A stretch of 64,000 nucleotides of DNA from Halobellus rufus (GTDB taxonomy: Archaea; Halobacteriota; Halobacteria; Halobacteriales; Haloferacaceae), in contig NZ_BBJO01000002.1 of assembly GCF_000739575.1 (NCBI RefSeq), positions 1 through 64,000 on the forward strand, written 5' to 3'. The notes below the pieces were generated by a model. It was not told the origin of the DNA. It ran no database searches and saw nothing but the letters and a program-made list of their open reading frames with translations. Shown here piece by piece: positions 7,726-23,232 of the stretch. Both the position numbers and the translations under genes were made by a program. Every line of letters starts with the position of its first letter. The stretch's first letter is position 1.

Positions 7726-10290
7726 ATGCGATTGGACTTCCAGCGGTTCGTCGACTGGGCGGACGACAACATCGTCAACCGCCCGAAGAAAGTGATGCTG
7801 GCGTTCCTGCTCGTCACGCTCATCTTCGCCGGCGGGCTCGGCAACGTCTCGACGGAGGCGGGGACCCAGCAGTTCGCCGAGGACATCCCGGCGTCGAACG
7901 CGCTCGAACGGATCGAAAACGAGTTCGAGTCGCCGTTCGCGACGAGCCCCGGGAGCACCCAGCTCGTCCAGCGGGACCGCAACGTCCTCTCGAAGCGATC
8001 GATGATCGCGATGCTGCGCGCCCAGCAGGCGCTCGAAGAGCGCGACGACATGTACGTCTCCGGCACGTCGTCGTCCGCGGCGGTCGTCGCGCGGAGCATC
8101 GATCCGGAGGCGACGACGCTCGACCGGCAGATCACCACGCTCGAACGCGCCACGGCGACGGAGATCGACCGCGCGGTCCGTGAGAACGCCGACAACTCCG
8201 CGCTCACGGGGTCGCTGAGCAACGACTTCAACCGCCGGGCGGCCTCGGCGTCGGCGACGATCGGCGTCGTCCAGCACGACCTCCCCGGCGGTTCCGGCGG
8301 CGGTTCCGTGGGGCAGTCCGGCGACAGCCCGCTGACGTCGATCCAGAACGACGCCCAGCGGATCATCGACGCGGAACTCGACGCCGACATCACCGTCTTC
8401 GGGAGCGGTATCATCGCCGACGAGTTCGGGACCGTCATCACCGACTCGCTGCTCATCGTGACGCCCGCTGCGGTGCTTCTCATCGTCGGATTCCTCGTGA
8501 TCGCCTACCGGGACCTGCTGGATCTCCTGTTGGGTATCACCTCGCTCGGGATGGCCGTCATCTGGACGTTCGGCTTCCTCGGGCTGGCGGGCATCCCGTT
8601 CAACCAGATCATGATCTCCGTCCCGCCGCTGTTGTTGGCGGTCGGCATCGACTTCGGGATCCACGCGATCAACCGCTACCGCGAGGACAGGGCCACCGGA
8701 CTGGACGTCGAGTCGGCAATGCAGCTCACCACCGACCAACTGCTCGTCGCCTTCTTCATCGTCACCGGGACGACCGTCATCGGCTTCCTCTCGAACCTCG
8801 CCTCCGACCTCCCGCCGATCCGCGACTTCGGCATCGTCGCGGGCGTCGGCATCATCTTCGTGTTCCTGATCTTCGGGATCTTCCTGCCCGCGGCGAAAGT
8901 CTGGATGGACCGCCGCCGAGAGAACTGGCCGATCCCGACGTTCAGCCAGCGCCCGCTGGGCGAGGAGGGGTCGGCCCTTGGAAAGGTACTCTCCGTCGGC
9001 GTGGTCCTCTCGCGGTACGCCCCGGTCGTCGTCCTCGTCCTGGCGCTGCTCTTCAGCGTCGGCGCGGCGGGCTACGCCACCGGCGTCGATACGTCGTTCA
9101 CGCAGGAGGACTTCCTCCCGCCGGAGGAGGTCTCACCGCTCCTGAAGTCGCTGCCGGAGCCGTTCGCGCCGAGCGATTACGGGGTCGTGGGGACGCTGAA
9201 CTTCCTCGAAGACAAGTTCACCAGCACACAGGGGGGGTCAGTGACCATATACGTCGAGGGGCGGATGGAGAACGACGCCGCCCTCGAACGGATCCACCGA
9301 GCGGGCGAGGACCCGCCCTCGGAGTTCGTCACCGACGGGAACCGCCGCGCGGAGTCGACGAGCATCGTGACGATCATTCGGGATCAGGCGGAGCGAGACC
9401 CCGAGTTCGCCGCGGTGGTCGAGCGCAACGACCGGAACGACAACGGCGTGCCCGACGACAACCTCGGGACGGTCTACGACGAACTGGCGGCGTCGTCGGC
9501 CGGATCGCAGGCGTCGCAGTACCTCGCGGAGGACCGCCGGAGCGCCCGGGTCGTCTACACCGTATCGGCGGACGCCTCCGACAGCGAAGCGACCGCCGCG
9601 GCCGACGAGGTCGCAGACCGGTTCCGCTACGAGGCGACGCCGACGGGCAACACGGTCGTCTTCCAGGAGGTCTCGGACCTCATCTTCGAGTCGGCGATCA
9701 CGAGCCTCGCGCTCGCGCTGGGGGCGACGGTCGTCTTCTTAGTCTTCATCTACTGGCTCTTGGAGGGGCTCCCGTCGCTCGGGATCGCGAACCTCGCGCC
9801 GATCGTCGTCGCGGTCGCCTCAGTCGCCGGGACGATGCGCGTGCTCGGCATCTCGTTCAACGCCTTCACCGCGACGATCCTCTCGCTGACGATCGGGCTC
9901 GGGATCGACTACTCGGTGCACGTCGTCCACCGCTTCGTCGACGAGCGGCGCGAGCGGGCGCTGATGCCGGCGCTGCAGCGCACCGTCGTCGGGACCGGCG
10001 GCGCGCTCCTCGGGAGTATGGCGACGACGGCGTTCGGCATCGGCGTCTTGGTCCTCGCCGTCCTCTCGGTCCTCGGGCAGTTCGGCGTGTTGACGGCGAT
10101 CTCGATCATCTACTCGTTCCTCGCGTCGCTGCTCGTGCTCCCCTCGGCGCTCGTCGTGTGGGACCGCCTCGTCAACGGGGACCCGTCGGTGCCGATCGGC
10201 CAGCGCGGCGACGCCGCCGGTCCCGCGGCCGACGTCGACGGGACGACGCGGGCTTCTGGCCAGAACCTCTCCGACGGGGGGCAGCTATGA
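7726..10290 (+). CDS. MMPL/RND superfamily exporter
   Basis: Twelve-helix transporter of 854 residues with the two-fold layout of the RND/MMPL family: TM1 (KVMLAFLLVTLIFAGGLG), a large exterior loop (about 45-235), a five-helix sterol-sensing-like block (about 240-395), TM7 near 425-450, a second exterior loop (about 455-650) and a second helix block to about 815. The GIDFGIHAINRYRE and GLGIDYSVHVVHRF segments are the paired helix-4 signatures, with acidic residues likely to carry protons. Archaeal members are predicted to export lipids or other hydrophobic compounds; no substrate can be read here. It sits between an exported repeat protein (3-base gap) and a TrmB regulator (ATGA overlap), so all three are probably one transcript. 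Confidence 0.88.
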   Translation: MRLDFQRFVDWADDNIVNRPKKVMLAFLLVTLIFAGGLGNVSTEAGTQQFAEDIPASNALERIENEFESPFATSPGSTQLVQRDRNVLSKRSMIAMLRAQQALEERDDMYVSGTSSSAAVVARSIDPEATTLDRQITTLERATATEIDRAVRENADNSALTGSLSNDFNRRAASASATIGVVQHDLPGGSGGGSVGQSGDSPLTSIQNDAQRIIDAELDADITVFGSGIIADEFGTVITDSLLIVTPAAVLLIVGFLVIAYRDLLDLLLGITSLGMAVIWTFGFLGLAGIPFNQIMISVPPLLLAVGIDFGIHAINRYREDRATGLDVESAMQLTTDQLLVAFFIVTGTTVIGFLSNLASDLPPIRDFGIVAGVGIIFVFLIFGIFLPAAKVWMDRRRENWPIPTFSQRPLGEEGSALGKVLSVGVVLSRYAPVVVLVLALLFSVGAAGYATGVDTSFTQEDFLPPEEVSPLLKSLPEPFAPSDYGVVGTLNFLEDKFTSTQGGSVTIYVEGRMENDAALERIHRAGEDPPSEFVTDGNRRAESTSIVTIIRDQAERDPEFAAVVERNDRNDNGVPDDNLGTVYDELAASSAGSQASQYLAEDRRSARVVYTVSADASDSEATAAADEVADRFRYEATPTGNTVVFQEVSDLIFESAITSLALALGATVVFLVFIYWLLEGLPSLGIANLAPIVVAVASVAGTMRVLGISFNAFTATILSLTIGLGIDYSVHVVHRFVDERRERALMPALQRTVVGTGGALLGSMATTAFGIGVLVLAVLSVLGQFGVLTAISIIYSFLASLLVLPSALVVWDRLVNGDPSVPIGQRGDAAGPAADVDGTTRASGQNLSDGGQL

Positions 10291-11084
10291 GCCTCGAAGA
10301 CGAGAGCGTCCCGTCCGAACACGAGGCGGTCGAGTCGCTCGAACGGCTGGGGCTCTCGAACTACGCCGCCCGGGTGTTCGTCGCGCTGCACCGACTCGGG
10401 GTGGGGACGGCCAAGCAGATTCACGAGGAGACGGACGTGCCGCGCTCGCAGGTGTACGGTGCGGCCGAGGAACTGCTCGACCGCGGGCTCGTCGAACTCC
10501 AGCAGTCGACGCCGAAGCGCTACCGGCCGATGGGGCTGGACACCGCCCGCAGGCGGCTCGCCGAGGAGCTGAAGAACGAGGCGGACCGGGCGTTCTCGTT
10601 CCTCGAAGCGCAGCGGCGCGCCCGAACTGAGCAGGAGACGCGCGACGACGTCTGGACCGTTCGCGGTCGCGAACCCGTGAGCGGCCGCGTCGTCGAACTC
10701 GCCCAGCAGGCGACTGAGACCCTGCTGTTCGCGGCGTCGGCGCCCGAGTTCGTCTCGGAGGACATCGTCGCCGCGATCGCCGAGCGGAGCGAGAACGGCG
10801 TCGCCGTCAGCGTGGTCAGCGAGGACTCGACCGTCAGAGAGCGCTTCGCGGCGCTCGACGGCGTCGACGTCGACGCCCCCCAGGAGTCACAGCCGATGGA
10901 TTACACCGGCCGGGTCCTGCTCGTCGACGACCGGGCCGTCCTGCTCTCGTCGGTGCCCGCGACGGAGAGCGGCGAGGAGACGGCGATCTGGTCGGCGGAC
11001 ACCGCGATGGCGCGGATCCTCGCGCAGGCCATCGCCGGCAGCATCGACTCGTTCGTTCGCGGGTCTGGCGTCGAGTGGAAGTAG
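10287..11084 (+). CDS. TrmB family transcriptional regulator
   Basis: Regulator of 265 residues. The N-terminal winged helix (AVESLERLGLSNYAARVFVAL, then QIHEETDVPRSQVYGAAEEL) is the TrmB DNA-binding domain. A helical linker (about 90-125) leads to a C-terminal sensor domain with VSEDIVAAIAERSENG and the closing ETAIWSADTAMARILAQA. TrmB proteins respond to small ligands, often sugars. The ATG overlaps the TGA of the exporter gene (ATGA at 10287-10290), which fixes the start and indicates translational coupling. It most likely controls the operon it ends; this is inference from position. Confidence 0.9.
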   Translation: MSLEDESVPSEHEAVESLERLGLSNYAARVFVALHRLGVGTAKQIHEETDVPRSQVYGAAEELLDRGLVELQQSTPKRYRPMGLDTARRRLAEELKNEADRAFSFLEAQRRARTEQETRDDVWTVRGREPVSGRVVELAQQATETLLFAASAPEFVSEDIVAAIAERSENGVAVSVVSEDSTVRERFAALDGVDVDAPQESQPMDYTGRVLLVDDRAVLLSSVPATESGEETAIWSADTAMARILAQAIAGSIDSFVRGSGVEWK

Positions 11085-11120
11085 GGGCTGCGGCCGTCGA
11101 TTCCCGCTCCGTTCACGTGC

Positions 11121-11402
11121 TCACCGCCGAATCGTGAAGCCCGATTCCCCTTCGGGATCCTCGTACGTCACGTCGACGTCGTCGACCGAGGCGGCCGGGC
11201 TTCCCGTCTCACACCACGCTATCATCTCCTCGACGAGCGACTCCGGCCCCTCGAACACCGCCTCGACGCGGCCGTCGTCGAGGTTCCGGACCCAGCCGTC
11301 GACGTCGCGCTCGCTGGCCGCATCCCGGGTCGACGCCCGGTAGTACACTCCCTGTACACGTCCGCTGACGTACACGTGCGCTCGGATTCGATCGTCGCTC
11401 AT
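11121..11402 (-). CDS. acyP: Acylphosphatase
   Basis: Small cytosolic enzyme of 93 residues that hydrolyses carboxyl-phosphate bonds. The N-terminal VSGRVQGVYYRAST carries the phosphate-binding loop and catalytic Arg, WVRNLDDGRVEAVFEG carries the catalytic Asn and second family motif, and the alpha/beta sandwich length is normal. The gene is convergent with the TrmB gene and stands alone. The acidic surface is typical of the host. Confidence 0.92.
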   Translation of the reverse strand: MSDDRIRAHVYVSGRVQGVYYRASTRDAASERDVDGWVRNLDDGRVEAVFEGPESLVEEMIAWCETGSPAASVDDVDVTYEDPEGESGFTIRR

Positions 11403-11613
11403 CGAGGCAGGGATTCGTTCGGCGGCCGAAAGAGCGTGTCGCCTCCGGTGGTCGGTGAGAGCACACGGAGACGTGGATCGGCCTCCGGTTTAACGAACCA
11501 CTAGGTGGTGGTGTCCGCCGGTTGTTTCGAGATTGTTAACTTTGGATCTACTTGCCTTCAATTGGCGTACGTTGGTCCTTACAATGTGCGTAGCTAGCGT
11601 GAGATAGTTCGAG

Positions 11614-12174
11614 ATGGCTACCGGGGAGCTCAGACGGCCGAGCCGTGACAGTGAGGAACGTGGGGCGATGGCGGACATCGTCTTCGACGCCCTGAGCAAT
11701 CGACGACGACGACTCGTCGTTCGCGAGTTACGTAAGGCCTCGCGACCGCTCGATATCGGAACGCTCTCGACGCGCATCGCCGCCCACGAGAACGGAATCG
11801 ATTCGAAATCAGTCACACACGGCCAACGGAAGAGCGTCTACACGTCGCTGCACCAGAACCACCTCCCGAAACTGACGGATGCGGGATTCGTCGCAGCGGA
11901 TAGGAAGTGGGTCGGACTCAGACTGACGGAGCGCGCGGCGGTGTTGGAGTCCCACCTCGACGACGACGCGCTGCGGATGGAAGATACCCGAGAGATCGAC
12001 GGCCTCACTCACCGGACGCACGTCTGGTCGACGGCGCTCGCAGTCGGGTTCTCCACGACCGGTGCGATCGCGCTCTATCCCGGCTCGAACCCCTCGAGCG
12101 TCCTCCTGGCGACCGTCGTCGCGCTCTGTGCGACGTTCGCGTGTTACTGGTTCGTGACAGACCTCGTCACCTGA
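11614..12174 (+). CDS. Membrane-anchored winged-helix protein (DUF7344-like)
   Basis: A 186-residue protein with an N-terminal winged-helix domain: IVFDALSNRRRRLVVRELRK, then SVTHGQRKSVYTSLHQNHLP and LTDAGFVAADRKWVGLRLT. This matches the haloarchaeal HTH type often annotated DUF7344. The C-terminal end has two hydrophobic helices (WSTALAVGFSTTGAIALYPG and SVLLATVVALCATFACYWFV), so the DNA-binding part should be held at the inner face of the membrane. It lies 210 bases before the giant malectin protein gene on the same strand, so it could regulate that surface locus; this is inference. Other possible starts are the ATG codons at about 11668 (MADIVF). Confidence 0.7.
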   Translation: MATGELRRPSRDSEERGAMADIVFDALSNRRRRLVVRELRKASRPLDIGTLSTRIAAHENGIDSKSVTHGQRKSVYTSLHQNHLPKLTDAGFVAADRKWVGLRLTERAAVLESHLDDDALRMEDTREIDGLTHRTHVWSTALAVGFSTTGAIALYPGSNPSSVLLATVVALCATFACYWFVTDLVT

Positions 12175-12384: not shown

Positions 12385-15300
12385 ATGACGAACGATAGGA
12401 CAAGACGCGCGTTGGTCCTGCTGGCGACGATTTTTATGATCACGTCGCCGATGGCCGGCGTCGTCGGTGCGTCGGCTGCGACCGGCGCGCACGACGGCGA
12501 CTTGCGCGCGGCAGACGTCGACGACGGGGCGCTGAACGCGGCCCAAGTAGCCGACACGACCGCGGTCGGGGAGGTGATCGCGCGCGTAAACGCGGGAGGT
12601 GACTCCGTGGCGGTCGACAGCGGCCCCGACTGGACGGGCGAGTGGGAGCAGTACCACTCCGGGAGCACCTCGACGTACAGCACGGGCGATTCGATCTCTC
12701 TGGACGCCTCAGTTCCGACTGACACGCCCGCAAGCGTGTTCCAGTCCGAAGTGTACGGCGAGCAGGAGTGGACGTTCTCAGACGGAGTTCAGAGCGGTCA
12801 GACCTACGAGGTCCGCCTCTACTTCGCCGAGATCTACCAGACCACTGACGGCGATCGGCTCTTCGACGCCACCGTCGAGGGCGAGCAGGTGCTCGACGGC
12901 TACGACATCCACGCTGACGTCGGTCACGACGTCGGCGTGATGAAGTCCGCCACCGTCACGCCCGCCGACGGAGAGATCGATATCGGTCTCACCAACGTCG
13001 AGGACAACGCGAAGATCAGCGCGATCGAGATCGTCGAGTCCGAACCCCAGCCCGACACGCTCGGTGGACCGTCGGACGTCGACTTCGGAAGCGTGGTCGT
13101 CGGCGACGCTGAGAGCGAGACGGTCACGCTGACGAACCTCGGTGGCGACGGCGACGCCGACATCACGATCGACGACGTGTCCGTCTCGGGTGACGGCGCA
13201 TTCTCGGCTGGAGCGGCGTCGCAAACGACGCTCGCCCCAGGCGAATCCGCCGACATCCCACTCACGTTCTCCCCGGACGACGCGCAGTCGGCGTCGGGGG
13301 CCGTCGAGATCACCCACTCGGGGAGTAACTCCCCGCTGAGTATCGACCTCGCCGGCGAGGGAACGAGCACTGCGCAAGTAGGCTTCGGCAAGAGCAGCCT
13401 GCAAGGGTTCGATCAGAGCTCACTGACGGCGCTCGAGTTCGGGCCGGACGGTCGGCTCTACGTCGCCAAACAGAACGGGATGGTGTACGCGCTGAACGTC
13501 ACCCGCGAGGGCGAGAACGACTACAGCGTCGAATCGCAGGAATCCGTCGACCTCGTTCAGGACATCCCGAACCACGACGACTTCGGGAACCACGAGTCCG
13601 GTGAGACGGCCCGCCAGATCACCGGCCTGACCGTCGGCGGGACGGCCTCGGAACCGGTCGTGTACGTCTCGTCGAGCGATCCGACGATCGACGTCGGGGA
13701 GGACGACGACGACACGGACACCAACTCCGGTGCGATCTCCCGGTTGACGTTCGACTGGGAGAGCGACGACACGTTGAACGGCGTCGACCACGAGGTGATG
13801 GTCCTCGGGCTGCCGCGCTCGGAGGAGAACCACGCGACCAACGGCCTCGATCTGGCCGACGACGGCGAGACGCTGTACGTCGCTCAGGGCGGGCACACGA
13901 ACCAGGGCGCACCGAGCAACAACTTCGGTCACACGCCCGAATACGCCCTCTCCGCGGCCGTTCTCGAAATCGATTTGGCACAGATCGAGACGGACCACCA
14001 GCCGAAGAACCTGCAGGACTACGACGCTGACTATCCGAACCTGGACTTCTGGTACGCGATCCCGACGATCCAGAACCACGACGGGACCGAGGGTGACGAC
14101 CTGCCGTTCGGCGGCAACGACGGGATCAACCAGGCCAAGTGGATCGAGGACGGTCCCGTGCAGGTCTACTCGACCGGGTACCGCAATCCCTACGACCTCG
14201 TCCTCTCGGAGGACGATCAGCTGTACGTCATCGACAACGGTCCCAACGGCGGCTGGGGCGGCCAGCCCGTCAACGAGGGTCCGGACGGGATGTGTACGAA
14301 CGAGCCGAACGATCCCGGTGGCGGCTCCGGTGACCAACTCCACCTCGCGACCGAGGGGTCCTACGGCGGTCACCCCGCCCCGATCCGGGCGAATCCGACG
14401 GGCGCTGACATCTACGACGCCGACGGGAACGTCATCTTCGACATCAACGAGTCGAACAGTCCCGTCCCGGCTTCGCAGGTGAACCCGATCGAGTGCGACT
14501 ACCAGAGCCCCGACGAGGACAACTCGCTCGGAGACACCTTCGGCTGGACCGGCGGTATGGACGAGTACACCGCCTCGAACTTCAGGGGCGCGATGCAGGG
14601 CGACCTGCTCGTCGTCGTCGGAGCCAGTTCCGTCGAGCGCGTCCAACTCGACGCCAGCGGGACGAGCGTCACCGAGCAGGAGAGCAACTTCTTCAGCGAC
14701 ATCAGCGCACTGGGCATCGCCGCACAGGGCGACGAGGGTCCCTTCCCGGGAACCGTCTGGACCGCCCGCGGTGATCTCACCGTGTTCGAGCCGAACGACT
14801 ACGAAGGCACCGGCGACGGCCAGCAGTGCACCGGTGCCGACGACCCATCGCTCGACGAGGACGGTGACGGCTACGACAACGCCGACGAGATCGACGCGGG
14901 ATCGGACCCGTGCTCGGCCGCCTCGACGCCGCCCGACTTCGACGACGACGGCACGTCCAACGTGAACGATCCGGACGACGACAACGACGGACAGCCCGAC
15001 ACGAGCGATCCGTTCGCGGTCGATCCAGAGGACGGGACCACGACGACGCTCCCGATTCAGATGGACTTCTCTGAGACGGAGCTGTTCGGCGAGAACGGCC
15101 AGGGTTGGACCGGCCTGATGACGAACGGCCAGACCGATTACCAGGACCTGTACGACCCCGACCAGATGACGGTCGGCGGTGCGGCGCAGGTGCTTACCGT
15201 CGAAGACGTGCCCGCCGGTGACGCGACGAACGACGACCAGCAGTACGCGTTCCAGCGCGGGTTCGACGCGCCCGAGGAACCCTTCACGGTCTCGACGACG

Positions 15301-18300
15301 GTGAACGGTCTGCCCGAGAACCCCTCGGACTACCAGTCGCTGGGGATCTACATCGGCAACGGCGATCAGGACAACTACCTGAAGCTGGTCGCCGCCGCGA
15401 ACGGCGGCACCGGGGGCGTCCAGTTCGCCGGCGAGACCGATGGCTCCTTCGAGAGCGTTCAACAGCCCGACGACTCGGCTGTCGCGGGCTCCGACAGCGA
15501 CACCGACCTCGAAATGACGGTGTACCCGAGCAACGACACCGTCGAGGCGTACTACACGCCCGAGGACGGCGAGGAGACGTACGTCGGTTCGACGACGATC
15601 CCCGGGTCGTGGCTCGACAGTTCGGACGGCAACGGCACCGCGGTGGGCGTCATCTCGACGTCCTACCAAGCCGGGTCGACGTTCGACGCTACGTGGACGA
15701 ATCTCGACGTCGAGTACGTGACCCCGCCGGAGAACCAACCACCAGTGGCCGACGCGGGCGCTGACGTCACCGTCGACGCGGGACAACAGGTCACGCTCGA
15801 CGCCTCGGGATCGACCGACCCCGACGGCGACGACGACGCGCTCGGCTACACGTGGACGCAGACCGCCGGAACGCCCGACGGACTGCTGGACATGAGCGAC
15901 GGAGAGCAGGTGTCCTTCACCGCGCCCGACGTCGATTCGGAGACGACGTACACCTTCGAGGTGAGCGTCTCCGACGGCCAGGACAGCGACACCGACACGG
16001 TGAACGTGACGGTGCAGCCCACCGACGACTCCGGCGACGGGCCGACCGACGGCGAGGTCCTCTACCGCGTGAACGCCGGTGGCTCCGAGACCGCGGCCAG
16101 CGATGGTGGCCCGTCGTGGAGCGCGGACACCGATGGCAGCCCCTCGCCGTACGTCAACGCTGACGGAGACAACGGGCTCAACACCTACAGCACGGACGAC
16201 ACCGTCTCCCTCGATAGCTCGGTGCCCGCGGACACGCCAGCGTCCCTGTTCCAGACGGAGCGGTACGACGTGAACACGACGGGCTCGGCGGCGGACGACA
16301 CCGAGATGCAGTGGTCCTTCGACGTCCAACAGGGCGAGACCTACGAGGTCCGCCTCTACTTCGCCGAGATCTTCCTCGACGCCTCGAACGTGGAGTCGCA
16401 AGGGCCGCGGACCTTCGACGTGACTGTCGAAGGCGACACGGCGCTGGACGACTACAACCTCTACGACACGTACGGACACGACGTCGGAGCGATGGAGTCG
16501 TTCGAGGTGACGCCCGCTGACGACAGCCTCGACGTCGAGTTCCTCCACGGACAGGAGAACCCGAAGGTGTCGGCGATCGAGGTCGTCGCCGTCGACGGTG
16601 ACGAACCGCCCGCGGACGGCGATCTGACCGTCGCCGAGGCCGTGGCGATGGGCGGCGAGAACGACTCACAGATCGAAGACGCGGAGATCCAAGAGGCGAT
16701 CAACTGGTGGTCGACGGACGCCGAGGTTCCCAACACCGGCGGACAGACCGTCGGTGACGCCGAGATACAGAGCCTCATCAACCTCTGGGCGACCGACGCT
16801 GCGGTCGGTGAGGGTGACGACGGCGGCGACGAGGACGGGACGACCGGATCGGCGTTCGTCGAGGTCACGCCCGACTCGGGCGTCGAGGCGTCTACCTACG
16901 GGGGCGGCTCCTTCGAAGTCACGAACACTGGCGACGAGCAGGTCTCGTCGGTTACCTTCGACCTCTCGTCGTCGGCGATGCCCGACGTGGTGTTCGATCC
17001 CGAGGGGACCGCCGGCGACCAGGCCGCGAAGGGACTGAATATCGACTCGCAGTCGGGTGACGGCGTCGGCGTCGTCAGCACCGACGACGGGGACGTGTTC
17101 AGCCAGCCGCACAACGGCGTGAACGGGTCCGACGGCTACGACGTGATGACCGTCGAGTTCGACGACTTCGACCCCGGTGAGTCGGTGTCGTTCTCGGTCG
17201 ACAACGATCCGACGAGCATCAAGGACGCGAGCATCTCCTCCCAAGAGGCGGGTCCGATCTCCGGGCTCGAACTGGCCCGCTCGACGGTGAGCGTCGAGTA
17301 CGCCGACGGCGGCGTCCAAGAGACCCAGCTGTTCGGTGACGGCAGCGCTGGCGGCGCGCAGGCGACCCTCGACGAGTCGGTCGCGTCGGCACCGAGCGTC
17401 GACGTGCAGGACGTCGCCCTCGACGACGCCGCGCTCCGTGACCACCACAGCGCGGCCACCGTTAGCGAGGCAGACCAGACCGTGACCGTCACGGGCGACC
17501 CCGGGGCGACCGTCACGCTGCTGCACTTCGAGGGCGAACTCGAACTGAGCAACGTCCCCGAGTACGACGGCACGCCCGGGTACGACGTGGAGGCCTACGA
17601 GGCCAACAAGATCGAGCAGGTGAACTACGAGACGGTCACGCTCGACTCGAGCGGCGAGGCCGAAGTGCCCGTCACGCTGCTCAACTCGACGGACGTCGGC
17701 GGGTACAACTACCTCGTGGCCGCGCAGGGTGAGCCCGACGCGGACACGGGGCTCGCCTCGAACGTCGTGGTCCTGCACTACGACGAGAGCGCCGGCGACG
17801 GCGGTGAGCCCGATCAGCCGAGTGACGTCGCCTTCGCCGTGAACGCCGGTGGCGACGAGTACACGGCTTCTGACGGCACCGTCTATCAGGCCGACACCAA
17901 CTTCGACGGCGGCGACACCTACAGCACGACGCAGTCGATCGACGGCACGCAGGACGACGAACTCTACCAGACGGAGCGCTACGGCGGCGCTCCCGGTTCG
18001 GACCCGCTGAGTTACGACGTCCCGCTCGATGACGGCGAGTACGAGGTCACCCTCCACTTCGCCGAGATCTATCAGGGCGTCGCCGACAGCGATTCGCCCG
18101 ATTCGACCGGTCCGGAGGACGGCACGAACGAGAACGACCGCGTGTTCAACGTCAGCATCGAGGGCGAGCAGGTCCTCACCGACTACGACATCTTCGCCGA
18201 AGTTGGCCCGCTGACCGCGACGCAGGAGACGTTCACGACAGAGGTCACCGACGGCGAACTGAACGTCGATTTCGCGGCGACCTACGACAACGCGAAGGTC

Positions 18301-19161
18301 AGCGCGATCGAGATCACGGAAGTCGACGGCGACGGGAACGGTGACAGCGGCGACGAGAACGCCGCACCCACGATAGACGCGATCGACGACCAGACGGTCA
18401 CCGAAGGTGAGTCGGCGAACGTCTCGGTCACCGCCCAGGACCCCGACGGCGACTCGCTGGTGCTCGCGGTGAACGGTCCCGACTTCGTCGATCTCTCGAA
18501 CGGCGACGTAACCATCGCTCCCGAATCGGGCGATGCGGGCACCTACACCGTCGAAGTCACCGCCACTGACGGCAACGGCGGCACTGCGACGGAGTCGTTC
18601 CAGGTGACCGTCGAAGAAGCCGAGGAGCCCCAGCCCGCGCAGGTCCTCCACCGCGTGAACGCCGGTGAGGACACCACGGTCGACGCGACCGACGACGGCC
18701 CCGACTGGACGGGCGTCGCCGACACGAACTCGCCGTACCTCGCGTCTGTCGCAAGCACCAGCGCCGGCAACTTCTGCGGCGGCGACGACGTCTCTCCCGG
18801 CAGTGACGTCCCTTCGACCACGCCCGACGGGGTCTGGGACTGCGAGCGTTACGGGAACTCCACGTGGGAGTTCACCGTCGACGACGGAGCCGACGTCGAC
18901 GTTCGCCTCTACTTCGCCAACTCGTTCGACGGGGCATCTGAGCCCGGCGAGCGGCAGTTCAACGTCTCCGTCGAGGGCGATCAAGTGCTGACGCAGTACG
19001 ACCCCGTGGCCGACGTCGGTCACGCGACGGGAGCGATGAAAGAGTTCGCGGCGACCGACGACGGCGACGGCACGATCACGATCGACTTCGAGACGGGAAC
19101 GGCCGAGAATCCCGAGATCAGAGCCATCGAGATCATCGAATCGGAGGAGGGCTCCCAGTAG
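12385..19161 (+). CDS. Giant secreted malectin / sugar-dehydrogenase-like / dockerin-like multidomain protein
   Basis: A 2258-residue secreted protein with an N-terminal signal segment (RALVLLATIFMITSPMAGVV). Approximate domains: malectin-like 1 (62-216); choice-of-anchor D / hydin-like sandwich (226-330); a beta-propeller of the glucose/sorbosone dehydrogenase type (332-808); Ca-binding thrombospondin-3-like Asp repeats (818-882); a LamG/DUF1080-like jelly roll (889-1112); PKD (1115-1212); malectin-like 2 (1223-1402); a dockerin-like helix pair (1412-1472); unassigned beta domains (1489-1800); malectin-like 3 (1814-1979); a cadherin/Ig-like domain (1992-2077); malectin-like 4 (2086-2252). 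It ends in ESEEGSQ with no membrane anchor or sorting signal. Malectin folds bind carbohydrate and the propeller may oxidise sugars, so a role in polysaccharide capture or breakdown at the surface is inferred. Only two short Cys pairs are seen. Codon use looks native. Confidence 0.8.
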   Translation: MTNDRTRRALVLLATIFMITSPMAGVVGASAATGAHDGDLRAADVDDGALNAAQVADTTAVGEVIARVNAGGDSVAVDSGPDWTGEWEQYHSGSTSTYSTGDSISLDASVPTDTPASVFQSEVYGEQEWTFSDGVQSGQTYEVRLYFAEIYQTTDGDRLFDATVEGEQVLDGYDIHADVGHDVGVMKSATVTPADGEIDIGLTNVEDNAKISAIEIVESEPQPDTLGGPSDVDFGSVVVGDAESETVTLTNLGGDGDADITIDDVSVSGDGAFSAGAASQTTLAPGESADIPLTFSPDDAQSASGAVEITHSGSNSPLSIDLAGEGTSTAQVGFGKSSLQGFDQSSLTALEFGPDGRLYVAKQNGMVYALNVTREGENDYSVESQESVDLVQDIPNHDDFGNHESGETARQITGLTVGGTASEPVVYVSSSDPTIDVGEDDDDTDTNSGAISRLTFDWESDDTLNGVDHEVMVLGLPRSEENHATNGLDLADDGETLYVAQGGHTNQGAPSNNFGHTPEYALSAAVLEIDLAQIETDHQPKNLQDYDADYPNLDFWYAIPTIQNHDGTEGDDLPFGGNDGINQAKWIEDGPVQVYSTGYRNPYDLVLSEDDQLYVIDNGPNGGWGGQPVNEGPDGMCTNEPNDPGGGSGDQLHLATEGSYGGHPAPIRANPTGADIYDADGNVIFDINESNSPVPASQVNPIECDYQSPDEDNSLGDTFGWTGGMDEYTASNFRGAMQGDLLVVVGASSVERVQLDASGTSVTEQESNFFSDISALGIAAQGDEGPFPGTVWTARGDLTVFEPNDYEGTGDGQQCTGADDPSLDEDGDGYDNADEIDAGSDPCSAASTPPDFDDDGTSNVNDPDDDNDGQPDTSDPFAVDPEDGTTTTLPIQMDFSETELFGENGQGWTGLMTNGQTDYQDLYDPDQMTVGGAAQVLTVEDVPAGDATNDDQQYAFQRGFDAPEEPFTVSTTVNGLPENPSDYQSLGIYIGNGDQDNYLKLVAAANGGTGGVQFAGETDGSFESVQQPDDSAVAGSDSDTDLEMTVYPSNDTVEAYYTPEDGEETYVGSTTIPGSWLDSSDGNGTAVGVISTSYQAGSTFDATWTNLDVEYVTPPENQPPVADAGADVTVDAGQQVTLDASGSTDPDGDDDALGYTWTQTAGTPDGLLDMSDGEQVSFTAPDVDSETTYTFEVSVSDGQDSDTDTVNVTVQPTDDSGDGPTDGEVLYRVNAGGSETAASDGGPSWSADTDGSPSPYVNADGDNGLNTYSTDDTVSLDSSVPADTPASLFQTERYDVNTTGSAADDTEMQWSFDVQQGETYEVRLYFAEIFLDASNVESQGPRTFDVTVEGDTALDDYNLYDTYGHDVGAMESFEVTPADDSLDVEFLHGQENPKVSAIEVVAVDGDEPPADGDLTVAEAVAMGGENDSQIEDAEIQEAINWWSTDAEVPNTGGQTVGDAEIQSLINLWATDAAVGEGDDGGDEDGTTGSAFVEVTPDSGVEASTYGGGSFEVTNTGDEQVSSVTFDLSSSAMPDVVFDPEGTAGDQAAKGLNIDSQSGDGVGVVSTDDGDVFSQPHNGVNGSDGYDVMTVEFDDFDPGESVSFSVDNDPTSIKDASISSQEAGPISGLELARSTVSVEYADGGVQETQLFGDGSAGGAQATLDESVASAPSVDVQDVALDDAALRDHHSAATVSEADQTVTVTGDPGATVTLLHFEGELELSNVPEYDGTPGYDVEAYEANKIEQVNYETVTLDSSGEAEVPVTLLNSTDVGGYNYLVAAQGEPDADTGLASNVVVLHYDESAGDGGEPDQPSDVAFAVNAGGDEYTASDGTVYQADTNFDGGDTYSTTQSIDGTQDDELYQTERYGGAPGSDPLSYDVPLDDGEYEVTLHFAEIYQGVADSDSPDSTGPEDGTNENDRVFNVSIEGEQVLTDYDIFAEVGPLTATQETFTTEVTDGELNVDFAATYDNAKVSAIEITEVDGDGNGDSGDENAAPTIDAIDDQTVTEGESANVSVTAQDPDGDSLVLAVNGPDFVDLSNGDVTIAPESGDAGTYTVEVTATDGNGGTATESFQVTVEEAEEPQPAQVLHRVNAGEDTTVDATDDGPDWTGVADTNSPYLASVASTSAGNFCGGDDVSPGSDVPSTTPDGVWDCERYGNSTWEFTVDDGADVDVRLYFANSFDGASEPGERQFNVSVEGDQVLTQYDPVADVGHATGAMKEFAATDDGDGTITIDFETGTAENPEIRAIEIIESEEGSQ
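12801..12834 (+). repeat. DNA-level repeat, malectin copy 1
   Basis: A stretch of about 34 bases starting gacctacgaggtccgcctct is repeated identically at 16338-16371 inside malectin-like domain 2 of the same gene. It encodes TYEVRLYFAEI, the core strand of the malectin fold. Identity at the third codon positions points to recent duplication or gene conversion between these two domains. Confidence 0.75.
16338..16371 (+). repeat. DNA-level repeat, malectin copy 2
   Basis: Second copy of the stretch at 12801-12834. The equivalent parts of malectin-like domains 3 and 4 encode related residues but are not identical in DNA, so copies 1 and 2 are the closest pair. Confidence 0.75.
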
Positions 19162-19427
19162 GGGCGATCGACGATGATCGACGGTCCGCCGTTCGCCGCC
19201 GCCTGCTCGCGGCCGACTCCCGAAGTCGGCACCGAGAGCGACGGCGAGGCGAACGCGCGGCCAGTCGACGAGACGACTCCTGCGAACACCGCTCCGCGAC
19301 GGCGGCCGATCGCGTTCGGGGGTAACCACCGACGCCGACGCGCGCCGGCCACGTCGCCGTGGGGCGTACGAATCGAGCGACGACCGATCCAGCGACAACA
19401 GCGAATCACACGACACACCAGCAACCG

Positions 19428-21398
19428 ATGAACGACACAGTACCCAGATATCTCAGACAGACCATCGCCGCGCTCGTGGCCGTCTCGATCGTCCTCTCGG
19501 TCTTCGGACCGGTGGGGACGGTGGCGGCGGACCCGAGCGTGTCAGTCCAGCAGTCCGCAGACAGCACGACAGTCTCACCCGGTGACACGGTCACCTTCAC
19601 GACCGAGTTAGCCGTTTCCGAACTCAACGCCCCGCAGTTGCAGTCGACGATCCCCGACGGCTGGGAGATCGAATCGCAGTCGGCCGACGGCCCGGTGGCG
19701 TACAACGACGGCACGTGGACGTGGCTCGCCGGCGACGACGACGGCGTCGACGTGAGTTACACCGTCGAGTACACCGTGAGCGTCCCCGACGACGCCGACC
19801 CCGGAGACTACGCGGTCGGCGTCGAGGGGTCGGCTCTCGCCCCCGGCGGCGAGCGAACGGCCGAGACGGACTCGACGACGATCACCGTCGAAGCGCCCGA
19901 CCAGAACCAGGCCCCCTCGGCCTCGTTCGATGTGAGTCCCGCCTCGCCAGACGTCGGTGAGGAAGTCAGCCTCGACGCCTCCGGCTCCAGCGACGCAGAC
20001 GGCTCGATCGTGAGCTACGAGTGGGACTTCGACGGCGACGGAACGGTCGATGCGACCGGATCCTCGCCCACGGCCGCGCACACGTACGACTCGGCCGACG
20101 ACTACACCGTGGAACTGACAGTTATCGACGACGACGGCGCGACCGACACGGCCACCGAGACGATAACGGTCAGCCAGGCGCCGCAGCCCGATCCGGCGGA
20201 GTTCCAGCTGTCGGCACTCGACGTGGAGTCGCCGGTCGAACAGGGGACCGACGCCGCGGTGACGGCGACGGTCGAGAACGTCGGCGGCGAGTCCGGCACG
20301 CAGACTGTCGCGCTCGACGTCGACGGCAGCGAGGTCGACAGTCAGTCCGTCACGATCGACGGCGACTCGAGCCAGCAGGTGAGCTTCGACGTCGACACCA
20401 GCGGCCTCTCGGTGGGCGATCACGACGTGACGCTCTCGACCGACGACGACAGCGCGAGCGCGACGCTCACCGTGAACGAAGCGCCGCCGGACAACCAGCC
20501 CCCGTCCGCTGCGTTCGACGTCTCCCCCGCAGATCCGGAGACGGACGAGACGGTGACCTTCGACGCGGCGGCGTCGAGCGACGCGGACGGCTCGATCGCC
20601 TCCTACGAGTGGGACTTCGGCGACGGCGAGACGGCGACCGGTGAGACGGCCACGCACTCGTACGAAACTGCCGGCGACTACACGGTCGAACTGACCGTCA
20701 CCGACGACGACGGCGCGACCGACACGGCCACCGAGACGGTGACGGTCGCTGCGCCGTCGGAGCCCGGTCCCGAGCAGTCGACGGCGGTGTCGCTGTCGCC
20801 CGACGAAGACCTCGTCGCCGTGAACGGCTCGACCACGTTCGACGTGGTCGTCGAGAACGCCGACGGCGGCGTCGGCGCGTACAGCCTCGGCGTCTCCGTC
20901 GACGACGCGTCGGCCGCGGCGATCACCGACCTCTCTGTCGACGACGGCGCGCTCTCGGACGTCGAAGTCGCCGGGGACGGGAGTTCGGCGAGCGCCGACG
21001 TGGCACTGCTCGACACCGACGACACCGGTCCCGTGACCGTCGCGACAGTGACTGTCGACGGCGAAGCCGACGGCACGACCGATCTCGCGCTCGACGTGTC
21101 CAGCCTCGGCACCGAATCCGGCGACGCGTACGAGGTCACGGAGACCAACGGCGCGACGCTGACCGTCTCCGAGCTCGTCGTCGGCGCGTCCGACCAGCCC
21201 GCCCAGGACCTCGACGACGACGGCGTCTACGAGGACGTCAACGGCGACGGCACCGTCGACGAGCTGGACGTCCAACTCCTGTTCGCCGAGCGGAACGGCG
21301 ACGTCGTGCAGGGCTCGCCCGACGCGTTCGACTTCAACGGCGACGGCGAGTTCGACATCCTCGACGTGCAGAGCCTCTACTACGAGGAGGTCGCCTGA
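19428..21398 (+). CDS. Secreted PKD/CARDB protein with cohesin-like domain and C-terminal dockerin
   Basis: A 656-residue secreted protein. Signal peptide (TIAALVAVSIVLSVFGPVGTV), an N-terminal beta domain (37-157), PKD 1 (162-249), CARDB (257-351), PKD 2 (358-441), a cohesin-like domain (450-579) with TTFDVVVENADGGVGAY, and a C-terminal dockerin (593-654). The dockerin has two Ca-binding loops of the DxNxDGxxxxxD form: DVNGDGTVDELD (603-614) and DFNGDGEFDILD (635-646), each followed by a helix (VQLLF, VQSLYYEEVA). Dockerins bind cohesins, so one chain carries both partners and could act as an adaptor. The start at 19428 is fixed by the signal peptide. The next gene, a membrane-anchored cohesin, begins 6 bases after the stop. 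Confidence 0.83.
   Translation: MNDTVPRYLRQTIAALVAVSIVLSVFGPVGTVAADPSVSVQQSADSTTVSPGDTVTFTTELAVSELNAPQLQSTIPDGWEIESQSADGPVAYNDGTWTWLAGDDDGVDVSYTVEYTVSVPDDADPGDYAVGVEGSALAPGGERTAETDSTTITVEAPDQNQAPSASFDVSPASPDVGEEVSLDASGSSDADGSIVSYEWDFDGDGTVDATGSSPTAAHTYDSADDYTVELTVIDDDGATDTATETITVSQAPQPDPAEFQLSALDVESPVEQGTDAAVTATVENVGGESGTQTVALDVDGSEVDSQSVTIDGDSSQQVSFDVDTSGLSVGDHDVTLSTDDDSASATLTVNEAPPDNQPPSAAFDVSPADPETDETVTFDAAASSDADGSIASYEWDFGDGETATGETATHSYETAGDYTVELTVTDDDGATDTATETVTVAAPSEPGPEQSTAVSLSPDEDLVAVNGSTTFDVVVENADGGVGAYSLGVSVDDASAAAITDLSVDDGALSDVEVAGDGSSASADVALLDTDDTGPVTVATVTVDGEADGTTDLALDVSSLGTESGDAYEVTETNGATLTVSELVVGASDQPAQDLDDDGVYEDVNGDGTVDELDVQLLFAERNGDVVQGSPDAFDFNGDGEFDILDVQSLYYEEVA
20125..20163 (+). 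repeat. PKD repeat segment, copy 1
   Basis: The end of PKD domain 1 shares a run of about 36 identical bases (encoding DDDGATDTATET) with 20702-20738 at the end of PKD domain 2. This indicates recent duplication or conversion between the two PKD units. Confidence 0.7.
20702..20738 (+). repeat. PKD repeat segment, copy 2
   Basis: Partner of the segment at 20125-20163. The two PKD domains diverge outside this run, including a longer, calcium-loop-like insert (DFDGDGTVDATG) in copy 1 only. Confidence 0.7.
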
Positions 21399-21404
21399 TC
21401 GACG

Positions 21405-22229
21405 ATGGCCGCGACCACGACCCGGTCTCGCAGTCGCTGTGCGGCGTGCGCACTCGCACTCGTCGTGCTCCTCGCCGCGGCGGTCGGCGTCGCGGCCGCC
21501 GCCGACACGACTGACCTCGGCGTCGCCCCGCACACAGACAACGTAGCGCCCGGAGACACGACGGAAGTCGACGTCGTCGTCGAGAGCGCCGACGGCGGCG
21601 TCGGCGCGATCAACGCGTCTGTCACGCTGTCGGACCCCGAGGTCGCCACCGTCGCCGACGTGACGATCCACGGCGATCCCCGGCTCGAAAACGTGACCGA
21701 CCACGACGACGGCGTCGAGATAAGCGCGGCTCTCGCGGACACCGAGGACACCGGGCGCGTGACGATCCTCACCCTCGTCCTCCGCGGCGAGGCTTCCGGT
21801 CAGACTGCAATCGACGTGAACGCGCGTGCGCTCGGCGACGAAGGCGGAAACGCCTACACCGTCGCCGGAATCGAGCGTCCCACGGTGACGGTCGCCGACG
21901 GGTCCGACGGCAGCGGGTCGGACGGATCGAGTCGCTCGTCCGACGGGTCGGATGCGGGCGCGTCGTCGTCCGGAGAGTCCGACAGTGCGGAGTCGCTGTC
22001 CGGTGAACCACCCGGTGATGACGGTGAGAACGACGATACAGACGCGCCGACCGCCGACGAGTCGGGAGAGACGAAGACCGTCGACACCGGGGAGCCCACA
22101 CCCGGCAACGTCGTTGGCGATGGCGGGATCGAAACCTCGCTCGGGGGTGGACCGTTGGCCCAATACGGTCCTGTCGGCGCACTCGGCGTAGTCGCGATCG
22201 GTGCGATCGTGATCTACCGCTTCCGTTGA
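21405..22229 (+). CDS. Membrane-anchored cohesin-like surface protein
   Basis: A 274-residue surface protein. The signal peptide (about 1-33, ACALALVVLLAAAVGVAAAA) is followed by one cohesin-like beta-sandwich (36-165) with the motif TEVDVVVESADGGVGAINAS, closely matching the cohesin motif of the preceding gene. A linker rich in Ser, Asp, Gly and Glu (about 166-245) spans the cell-wall space, and the chain ends in a hydrophobic helix (GPVGALGVVAIGAIVIY) with RFR, which would hold it in the membrane with the cohesin outside. It lacks a clear PGF sorting motif, although GPLAQYGPVG precedes the helix. The gene starts 6 bases after the dockerin/cohesin gene, so the two are surely cotranscribed. 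Likely role: cell-surface anchor for dockerin proteins. Confidence 0.82.
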   Translation: MAATTTRSRSRCAACALALVVLLAAAVGVAAAADTTDLGVAPHTDNVAPGDTTEVDVVVESADGGVGAINASVTLSDPEVATVADVTIHGDPRLENVTDHDDGVEISAALADTEDTGRVTILTLVLRGEASGQTAIDVNARALGDEGGNAYTVAGIERPTVTVADGSDGSGSDGSSRSSDGSDAGASSSGESDSAESLSGEPPGDDGENDDTDAPTADESGETKTVDTGEPTPGNVVGDGGIETSLGGGPLAQYGPVGALGVVAIGAIVIYRFR

Positions 22230-22308: not shown

Positions 22309-23232
22309 ATGACTTCCGACGACATCCGATCCGGATTAGGGGTGTCGTCGGCACGCGGGATCACGATCATCTACGCCGTGGTGAGCGCCGCTTGGATCCT
22401 GTTCTCCGATCGATTGCTGGCGGCAATGGTCGCCGACCCCGCCCTCTACACCCAGTTGCAAACCGGAAAGGGCTGGGCGTTCGTCGGGGTCACCTCGGGG
22501 CTGATCTACGTCCTCATCTCCCGGCGCGAGGCCGAATTGGCCGAACAGAACGACCAGTTGGAGCGGGCGCTCCAGCAGATCTCGATCCTGCACCGGATCC
22601 TCCGGCACAACCTGCGGAACTCCTGTAACGTCGTGAAGGGATACGTCGAGGTCCTGAAACAGCGCGGAGACGGCGAGAACGAGGAAGTCGCAACGATCAT
22701 CGAGACGCACGTCGACGAACTGGTGCGGTTGAGCGAGAAATCGTACCTGCTCCGCGATATCGTTCTCGACGACAGCGACTCGGTCCAGTCCGTCGATCTC
22801 CCGTCGCTCATCGACGCCCGGGTCCGCGCGTTCGAGTCCGAACACCCGGATTCGGACGTCGACTTCGAGGTGGATCTCCCGGAGGAGTGCCTCGTTCGCG
22901 CCCACGCCCGCTTTGCCGACGCTGTCGACGAACTGTTCGAGAACGCGATCAAACACAACGACGCCGAGCGACCGACGATCCGCGTCTCGATGGGTTCGGA
23001 GACCGACGAGACGGTCGACCTCGACATCGCGGACAACGGCCCGGGGATCCCCGACATCGAACGGGCGGTCGTCGAGGAGGGAGAGGAGAAGCCGCTGTTT
23101 CACTCCCAGGGCATCGGCCTCTGGGTCGCGCGGGCGGCGGTCGTCGAGTCCGGCGGCGAGATCCGGTTCGTCGACAACGAGCCTCGCGGCTCCGTCGCCC
23201 GGATCACGCTTCCGAGGGCCTCGGCGAACTGA
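22309..23232 (+). CDS. Membrane sensor histidine kinase
   Basis: A 307-residue kinase. The N terminus has two membrane helices with the text SAAWILFSDRLLAAMV and LQTGKGWAFVGVTSGLIYVL, a module also found at the start of many bacterial kinases and cyclic-di-GMP proteins. A short coiled coil (EAELAEQNDQLERALQQIS) leads to the phospho-acceptor helix (ILHRILRHNLRNSCNVV, His of RHNLRN) and the ATPase domain with N box ELFENAIKHN, G1 DIADNGPGIP and G2 QGIGLWVARA. It has no PAS or receiver domain, and no response regulator lies beside it, as is common in haloarchaea. The signal is unknown. It lies just downstream of the surface cohesin genes but has its own promoter-like element. Confidence 0.88.
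   Translation: MTSDDIRSGLGVSSARGITIIYAVVSAAWILFSDRLLAAMVADPALYTQLQTGKGWAFVGVTSGLIYVLISRREAELAEQNDQLERALQQISILHRILRHNLRNSCNVVKGYVEVLKQRGDGENEEVATIIETHVDELVRLSEKSYLLRDIVLDDSDSVQSVDLPSLIDARVRAFESEHPDSDVDFEVDLPEECLVRAHARFADAVDELFENAIKHNDAERPTIRVSMGSETDETVDLDIADNGPGIPDIERAVVEEGEEKPLFHSQGIGLWVARAAVVESGGEIRFVDNEPRGSVARITLPRASAN

Follow-up and report, generated by a model that had tools for sequence, protein, structure and literature searches.

The window, i.e. the whole stretch of 64,000 nucleotides analysed here, contains three genes on the forward strand whose products combine cohesin, dockerin and candidate docking modules (Table 1). The first encodes a large secreted protein with a Pfam Malectin match in four stretches (E 1.2e-85), the second (P2) an adaptor or carrier with a cohesin-fold domain as well as a dockerin, and the third (P3) a small protein with a single cohesin-fold domain. 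The genes of P2 and P3 are separated by 6 bases. The original prediction had placed a chain with both cohesin and dockerin next to an anchored cohesin at 19428-22229, and these coordinates are correct. The start of P2 is the ATG at 19428, which opens a signal peptide; relatives begin at the equivalent MNDT..., which makes the in-frame GTG at 19359 the less probable start. Directly downstream of P3 and on the same strand lies a histidine kinase gene (22309-23232), and the region upstream of the cassette (7726-12174) encodes an MMPL/RND-type transporter, a TrmB-type regulator and a DUF7344 protein. A scan for bacterial promoters and terminators, which is ill-suited to archaea, found nothing.

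Table 1. Features of the three-gene cassette (positions in the window).
Feature	Position	Strand	Description
First gene	12385..19161	+	2258-aa secreted protein: signal peptide, malectin domains, PKD/Ig-like domains
EIQ module inside first protein	16615..16821	+	EF-hand-pair-like, two xEIQxxIxxW repeats, VPNTGG linker; candidate docking module
P2, second gene	19428..21398	+	656-aa adaptor/carrier: signal peptide, NEW3-like, PKD, CARDB, PKD, cohesin, dockerin
NEW3-like (NPCBM_assoc/DUF11-type) N-terminal domain of P2	19530..19892	+	candidate receptor of the EIQ module
P2 cohesin-fold domain	20787..21158	+	directly N-terminal to the dockerin
P2 dockerin and preceding DxDxDGxYED stretch	21201..21392	+	Pfam match, tuned profile
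P3, third gene	21405..22229	+	signal peptide, cohesin, Ser/Asp-rich linker, C-terminal membrane segment
P3 cohesin-fold domain	21516..21881	+	proposed receptor of the P2 dockerin

The dockerin of P2 is recognised by the Pfam model Dockerin_1 (PF00404; E 1.1e-8, 35.6 bits against a cut-off of 22.9). The loop pattern DxNxDG....D occurs twice, with the calcium ligands present in both loops (DVNGDGTVDELD and DFNGDGEFDILD), and the predicted model places one helix after each loop (159-167 and 191-214), which is the two loop-helix organisation of type I dockerins. The domain had been called a true two-loop dockerin, a description that holds with two loops as the minimum, because a DxDxDGxYED-like stretch (D, D, D-G and E-D invariant) precedes the dockerin in 13 of 13 aligned relatives. 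This stretch (21180-21230) is a possible third calcium site of haloarchaeal dockerins; on solved clostridial dockerins, profile matches mostly begin after it. According to a tuned profile, the P2 dockerin is the only one in the genome of the window (3.85 Mb searched, 95% complete). The Pfam model adds one fragment on another contig (G000:C35:27920-27988, E 0.34), a single calcium-loop-like piece in a 1050-aa surface-type protein with DUF7827 (L083:1131-4283).

The Pfam cohesin model PF00963 has no match in P2, in P3 or in the whole genome of the window. It was therefore discarded as a cohesin finder in favour of profiles built in this analysis, and we file both domains as cohesins by predicted fold and not as members of the sequence family. 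A Foldseek search with the predicted two-cohesin model is led by cohesins for both domains, with the Archaeoglobus fulgidus cohesin 2xdh at E 1.3e-6. VIA-align of the same model yields Z 14.4 to 1g1k and Z 13.7 to 2xdh over both cohesin ranges (1-130 and 240-366), such that both domains are predicted to adopt the cohesin-type beta sandwich. With P3 as query, the cohesin-like domain of P2 is retrieved at E 2.6e-15 (36% identity over about 170 residues), beyond chance, and the motifs by which the original prediction had linked the two proteins are both found (VVVENADGGVGA in P2, VVVESADGGVGA in P3). The common motif VVVExADGGVGA is a signature of the entire family, as seen in the profile consensus, and hence by itself no indicator of a common dockerin specificity; we rejected it as proof thereof. 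The tuned profiles identify exactly two cohesins in the genome, namely those of P2 and P3. That Pfam misses both, and that the three genes encode no cellulosomal enzymes, would also fit vestigial or unrelated adhesion modules that became neighbours by chance duplication. We consider this highly improbable, given that an alignment shows the calcium ligands of the dockerin to be invariant over 13 relatives and that the cassette is conserved over families of the order.

Clostridial and ruminococcal cellulosomes attach dockerins to anchored cohesins and employ adaptor tiers, X-module-dockerin dyads and anchoring scaffoldins. The logic of dockerin to anchored cohesin and the adaptor tiers are also what we propose here by analogy, whereas the proteins of the window carry single cohesins. 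Within the three proteins, Pfam detects neither glycoside hydrolase families nor an SLH or sortase-type anchor. Likewise, a genome that holds one dockerin and two single cohesins does not match the composition of a cellulosome, i.e. a multi-cohesin scaffoldin and dockerin-bearing glycoside hydrolases. Also close are the non-cellulosomal cohesin and dockerin proteins of A. fulgidus, which share the archaeal cohesin fold (2xdh, Z 13.7). That organism is said, in work from Bayer in 1999 and Voronov-Goldman in 2011, to possess two neighbouring ORFs with a cohesin and dockerin chain beside a second cohesin protein. In contrast to A. fulgidus, the partner cohesin is here small and predicted to be membrane-anchored at its C-terminus, the cassette is kept behind varied haloarchaeal cargo, and the halophilic cohesins escape PF00963. 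PMC9705933 presents the A. fulgidus cohesin-dockerin pair as an established binding tool. For ANME and other archaeal proteins, the excerpts of PMC9012536 and PMC5244752 describe one dockerin together with one or more cohesins, up to five, with unexplained function; these excerpts give counts and architectures, and no gene-order chains or haloarchaeal anchor cassettes. Among the papers covered by a literature search, none dealt with haloarchaeal cohesin-dockerin chains; two haloarchaeal papers, as far as their accessible portions go, mention dockerins only, as substrate-binding.

The C-terminal hydrophobic stretch of P3 reaches a mean hydropathy of 2.1 over its best 17 residues, from which we infer that P3 is membrane-anchored. 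Among 293 genomes of the order, the cohesin-dockerin segment has matches in 129 and P3 in 70 (both at E 1e-3). A separate cohesin protein lies beside the carrier in 19 of 20 fetched loci, including L067 and L070, where the neighbours are long two-cohesin proteins; no C-terminal membrane segment was seen in that of L067 (same locus as L090). The arrangement of the window is not unusual in the order. From 327 relatives, a scan over named genomes recovered 75 loci, mostly of Halobacteriales and otherwise of Methanoregulaceae, Methanoperedenaceae and two Bipolaricaulota assemblies. We counted as carriers proteins whose dockerin is preceded by a cohesin at a distance of no more than 45 residues, and as anchors single-cohesin proteins shorter than 400 aa whose C-terminus bears a hydrophobic stretch (38 other proteins were set aside). 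Together with the window, the loci comprise 83 carriers and 39 anchors. An anchor lies directly downstream of 36 of the 83 carriers (47 are without), and 36 of the 39 anchors sit directly downstream of a carrier, in a sample gathered with the carrier as bait, where anchors far from carriers are under-sampled. Anchor-like proteins retrieved with P3 also occur elsewhere (e.g. G125:C4). The cargo in front of the carrier cohesin varies and comprises PhoX phosphatase, 5'-nucleotidase, beta helix, nuclease-like and other domains. In a tree of the 72 cohesins from the 36 pairs (matches shorter than 105 residues dropped), the carrier cohesins and the anchor cohesins branch in parallel clades inside the cassette classes; the labels carrier and anchor need 5 changes on this tree, compared to a mean of 24 for shuffled labels. 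In one locus (L078:11200-12014, genome G193), whose cassette is otherwise intact, two tandem carriers are followed by an anchor cohesin gene that is broken across two reading frames and represents a frameshift or pseudogene.

Because 36 of 83 carriers have an anchored cohesin directly downstream behind such varied cargo, docking of the P2 dockerin to the P3 cohesin is the best-supported step of the proposed tether, and is well supported if indirectly. The genome of the window moreover holds a closed set of modules: one dockerin, two cohesins, one EIQ module and one NEW3-like domain, all within these three genes. Docking to the membrane protein, as put forward in the original prediction, is thereby upheld by the adjacency of anchors to carriers, the parallel clades and the closed set, while the self-polymerisation put forward alongside it is a hypothesis.

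The cohesin of P2 itself allows several roles. As a second, co-inherited module it would either lend rigidity to the dockerin or receive another dockerin, which could include that of another P2 copy. As a first possibility, which we hold tentatively, it may resemble an X-module and pack on its own dockerin, thereby aiding the binding to P3, and would not be a receptor. The cohesin directly precedes the dockerin in all 83 carriers, as is true by the definition used, and the stretch connecting the two is predicted at pLDDT 90-93. An AlphaFold read-through of cohesin, dockerin and cohesin (pLDDT 87, pTM 0.70; global scores that name no contact) agrees better with one rigid unit than with two by our own estimate, in which we take a pTM of about 0.5 to be expected for two rigid domains and of about 0.7 for three. 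However, pTM is not an interface score, and the dockerins of L100, L101, L104 and L108 have no cohesin directly in front, hence such a partner is not required.

The second role is self-polymerisation, in which the dockerin of P2 would bind the cohesin of a further P2 copy, with the resulting chain or brush capped on P3. The sole dockerin of the genome has these two cohesins alone as possible partners. Twelve genomes were searched for both modules, and in the five picked for lacking an adjacent anchor (G293, G294, G295, G296 and G297) every cohesin precedes a dockerin on the same chain, i.e. cohesins and dockerins are equal in number and no anchor is present. No diverged anchor lies downstream in L131, L138, L141 and L148, although in L136 (G297) the contig ends 388 bases past the carrier. 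Also, the carrier cohesin is conserved at least as well as that of the anchor in the PhoX class (mean identity 0.50 for carriers and 0.51 for anchors; 21 loci, 210 pairs of loci) and in the class of the window (0.74 and 0.64; 4 loci, 6 pairs); the Haloferax class has values of 0.78 and 0.77 (15 pairs of loci). A hint from the tree branches that the carrier cohesin is the more conserved one is true in the four loci of the window class, and not in the PhoX class. The anchor-less genomes and the conservation fit a cohesin-dockerin unit acting in cis equally, which the short spacing between both domains also suits. Moreover, the kept residues partly differ: in the PhoX class, 16 columns carry the same conserved residue in both cohesin sets, 3 are conserved but different, 13 are conserved in anchors only and 8 in carriers only. 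The two types of cohesin therefore need not bind the same partner. Retention of the cohesin-dockerin chain without an anchor thus suits homotypic chains or a cis unit, and we regard self-polymerisation as rather unlikely.

The large malectin protein was overlooked in the original prediction, which had confined the assembly to P2 and P3. Both of these remain in it; the upstream protein probably belongs to the same assembly as its outermost part. In L063-L068, P2 is likewise preceded by large proteins. The first protein of the window carries no dockerin. It does contain the EIQ module (69 residues), for which Pfam returns no dockerin match and weak EF-hand matches alone. Classification of the module as a dockerin by profile was rejected (hhalign probability 0.1 against the dockerin alignment; the alignments are shallow). 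Its first loop is canonical in L192, L199 and L200, the second is degenerate, and helices are predicted at 22-34 and 48-60.

The EIQ module occurs in 22 of the 293 genomes at E 1e-6. A NEW3-like match (E 1e-6) is found in 20 of these 22, compared to 34 of the 271 others (Fisher 1e-14, uncorrected for kinship), and in 12 of 14 after removal of the 8 genomes that supplied the seeds (Fisher 6e-9, likewise uncorrected). Across 19 EIQ loci (192 called genes), a NEW3-like domain is encoded by 14 genes apart from the EIQ genes themselves: 10 are directly downstream of the EIQ gene and 2 directly upstream, and in L206 one follows downstream with an antisense call alone between and another is the second gene. 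Several of these loci appear orthologous (L190, L191, L194, probably L193 and L204), which makes the independent number smaller. No NEW3-like domain lies beside the EIQ gene in L195, L196, L198 and L201; L197 combines both in a single protein, and the upstream EIQ protein of L202 contains a NEW3-like domain as well. The co-occurrence, often as neighbours, suggests a second docking pair. An AlphaFold read-through of the EIQ and NEW3-like domains from L192 gave pTM 0.59 and no confident interface. Its Foldseek matches are led by cohesin chains (5n5p, 2jh2) that are soon mixed with unrelated beta sandwiches, and we claim no fold kinship.

Combining the above, we slightly favour a reading of the three genes as a collinear surface tether. 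Modules and gene order are observed and the fold is computed, while binding, anchoring and the order of the chain are what the reading would add. P3 would provide a monovalent, membrane-anchored cohesin on which P2 docks by its C-terminal dockerin, and the N-terminal domain of P2 would hold the large malectin protein, in the window by the NEW3-like domain receiving the EIQ module. Against the proposal counts that the EIQ module is internal in its large protein, and not terminal, as does the absence of an anchor directly downstream of 47 of the 83 carriers. The counterpart in L087 would use an ordinary dockerin and an ordinary cohesin for the same step: its first gene ends in a dockerin and its P2 counterpart starts with an additional cohesin, both of which are absent in L085 and the window. 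All other modules of L087 group with those of the window despite this swap. In quick trees from short alignments (cohesin matches shorter than 100 residues dropped), the N-terminal cohesins encoded by the following gene in L087, L101, L104 and L108 form one clade with support 100 (61 cohesins), and the first-gene dockerins of the same loci group together at SH-aLRT 87, below the starred level (27 dockerins); the signal is confined to these four loci. Dockerin and N-terminal cohesin appear to have been swapped in together, as expected if the dockerin of gene i binds the first cohesin of gene i+1, and gene order thus looks like assembly order. Consecutive genes of L206 encode an EIQ module, then a NEW3-like domain and a dockerin, then two cohesins and a dockerin, and finally a cohesin.

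We note that multi-tier loci also occur. In L100, L101, L104 and L108, a dockerin protein is followed by one or two cohesin-dockerin proteins, and the last tier is a protein that has two or three cohesins and lacks a C-terminal membrane segment.

A cohesin-dockerin chain beside a cohesin protein is of a known kind; the novel part would be the EIQ-NEW3 pair together with the collinear chain. We advance, with some reserve, the conjecture that haloarchaea possess such a second docking pair and encode surface complexes as daisy chains: the docking module of every gene would match the N-terminal receptor of its successor, the membrane anchor would come last, and gene order would equal assembly order. 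Haloarchaea secrete enzymes that act in brine and are prone to loss by diffusion. If the tether exists, it would represent a general non-covalent means by which phosphatases, nucleotidases and sugar-handling proteins stay attached to the cell, while gene order would be a readable code for which protein sits on which. The halophilic cohesins are invisible to the standard cohesin model, which is why such systems get overlooked. The anchor-less genomes make the question of polymers directly testable.

Two further architectures were found outside the order. Two Bipolaricaulota MAGs (L146:6155-7552 and L157:4830-6227) encode a 465-aa protein with the order cohesin, dockerin, cohesin, dockerin. The genome of L135 (G303), a Methanoregulaceae MAG, contains 36 dockerin matches and 5 cohesins, a ratio that resembles that of cellulosomes.
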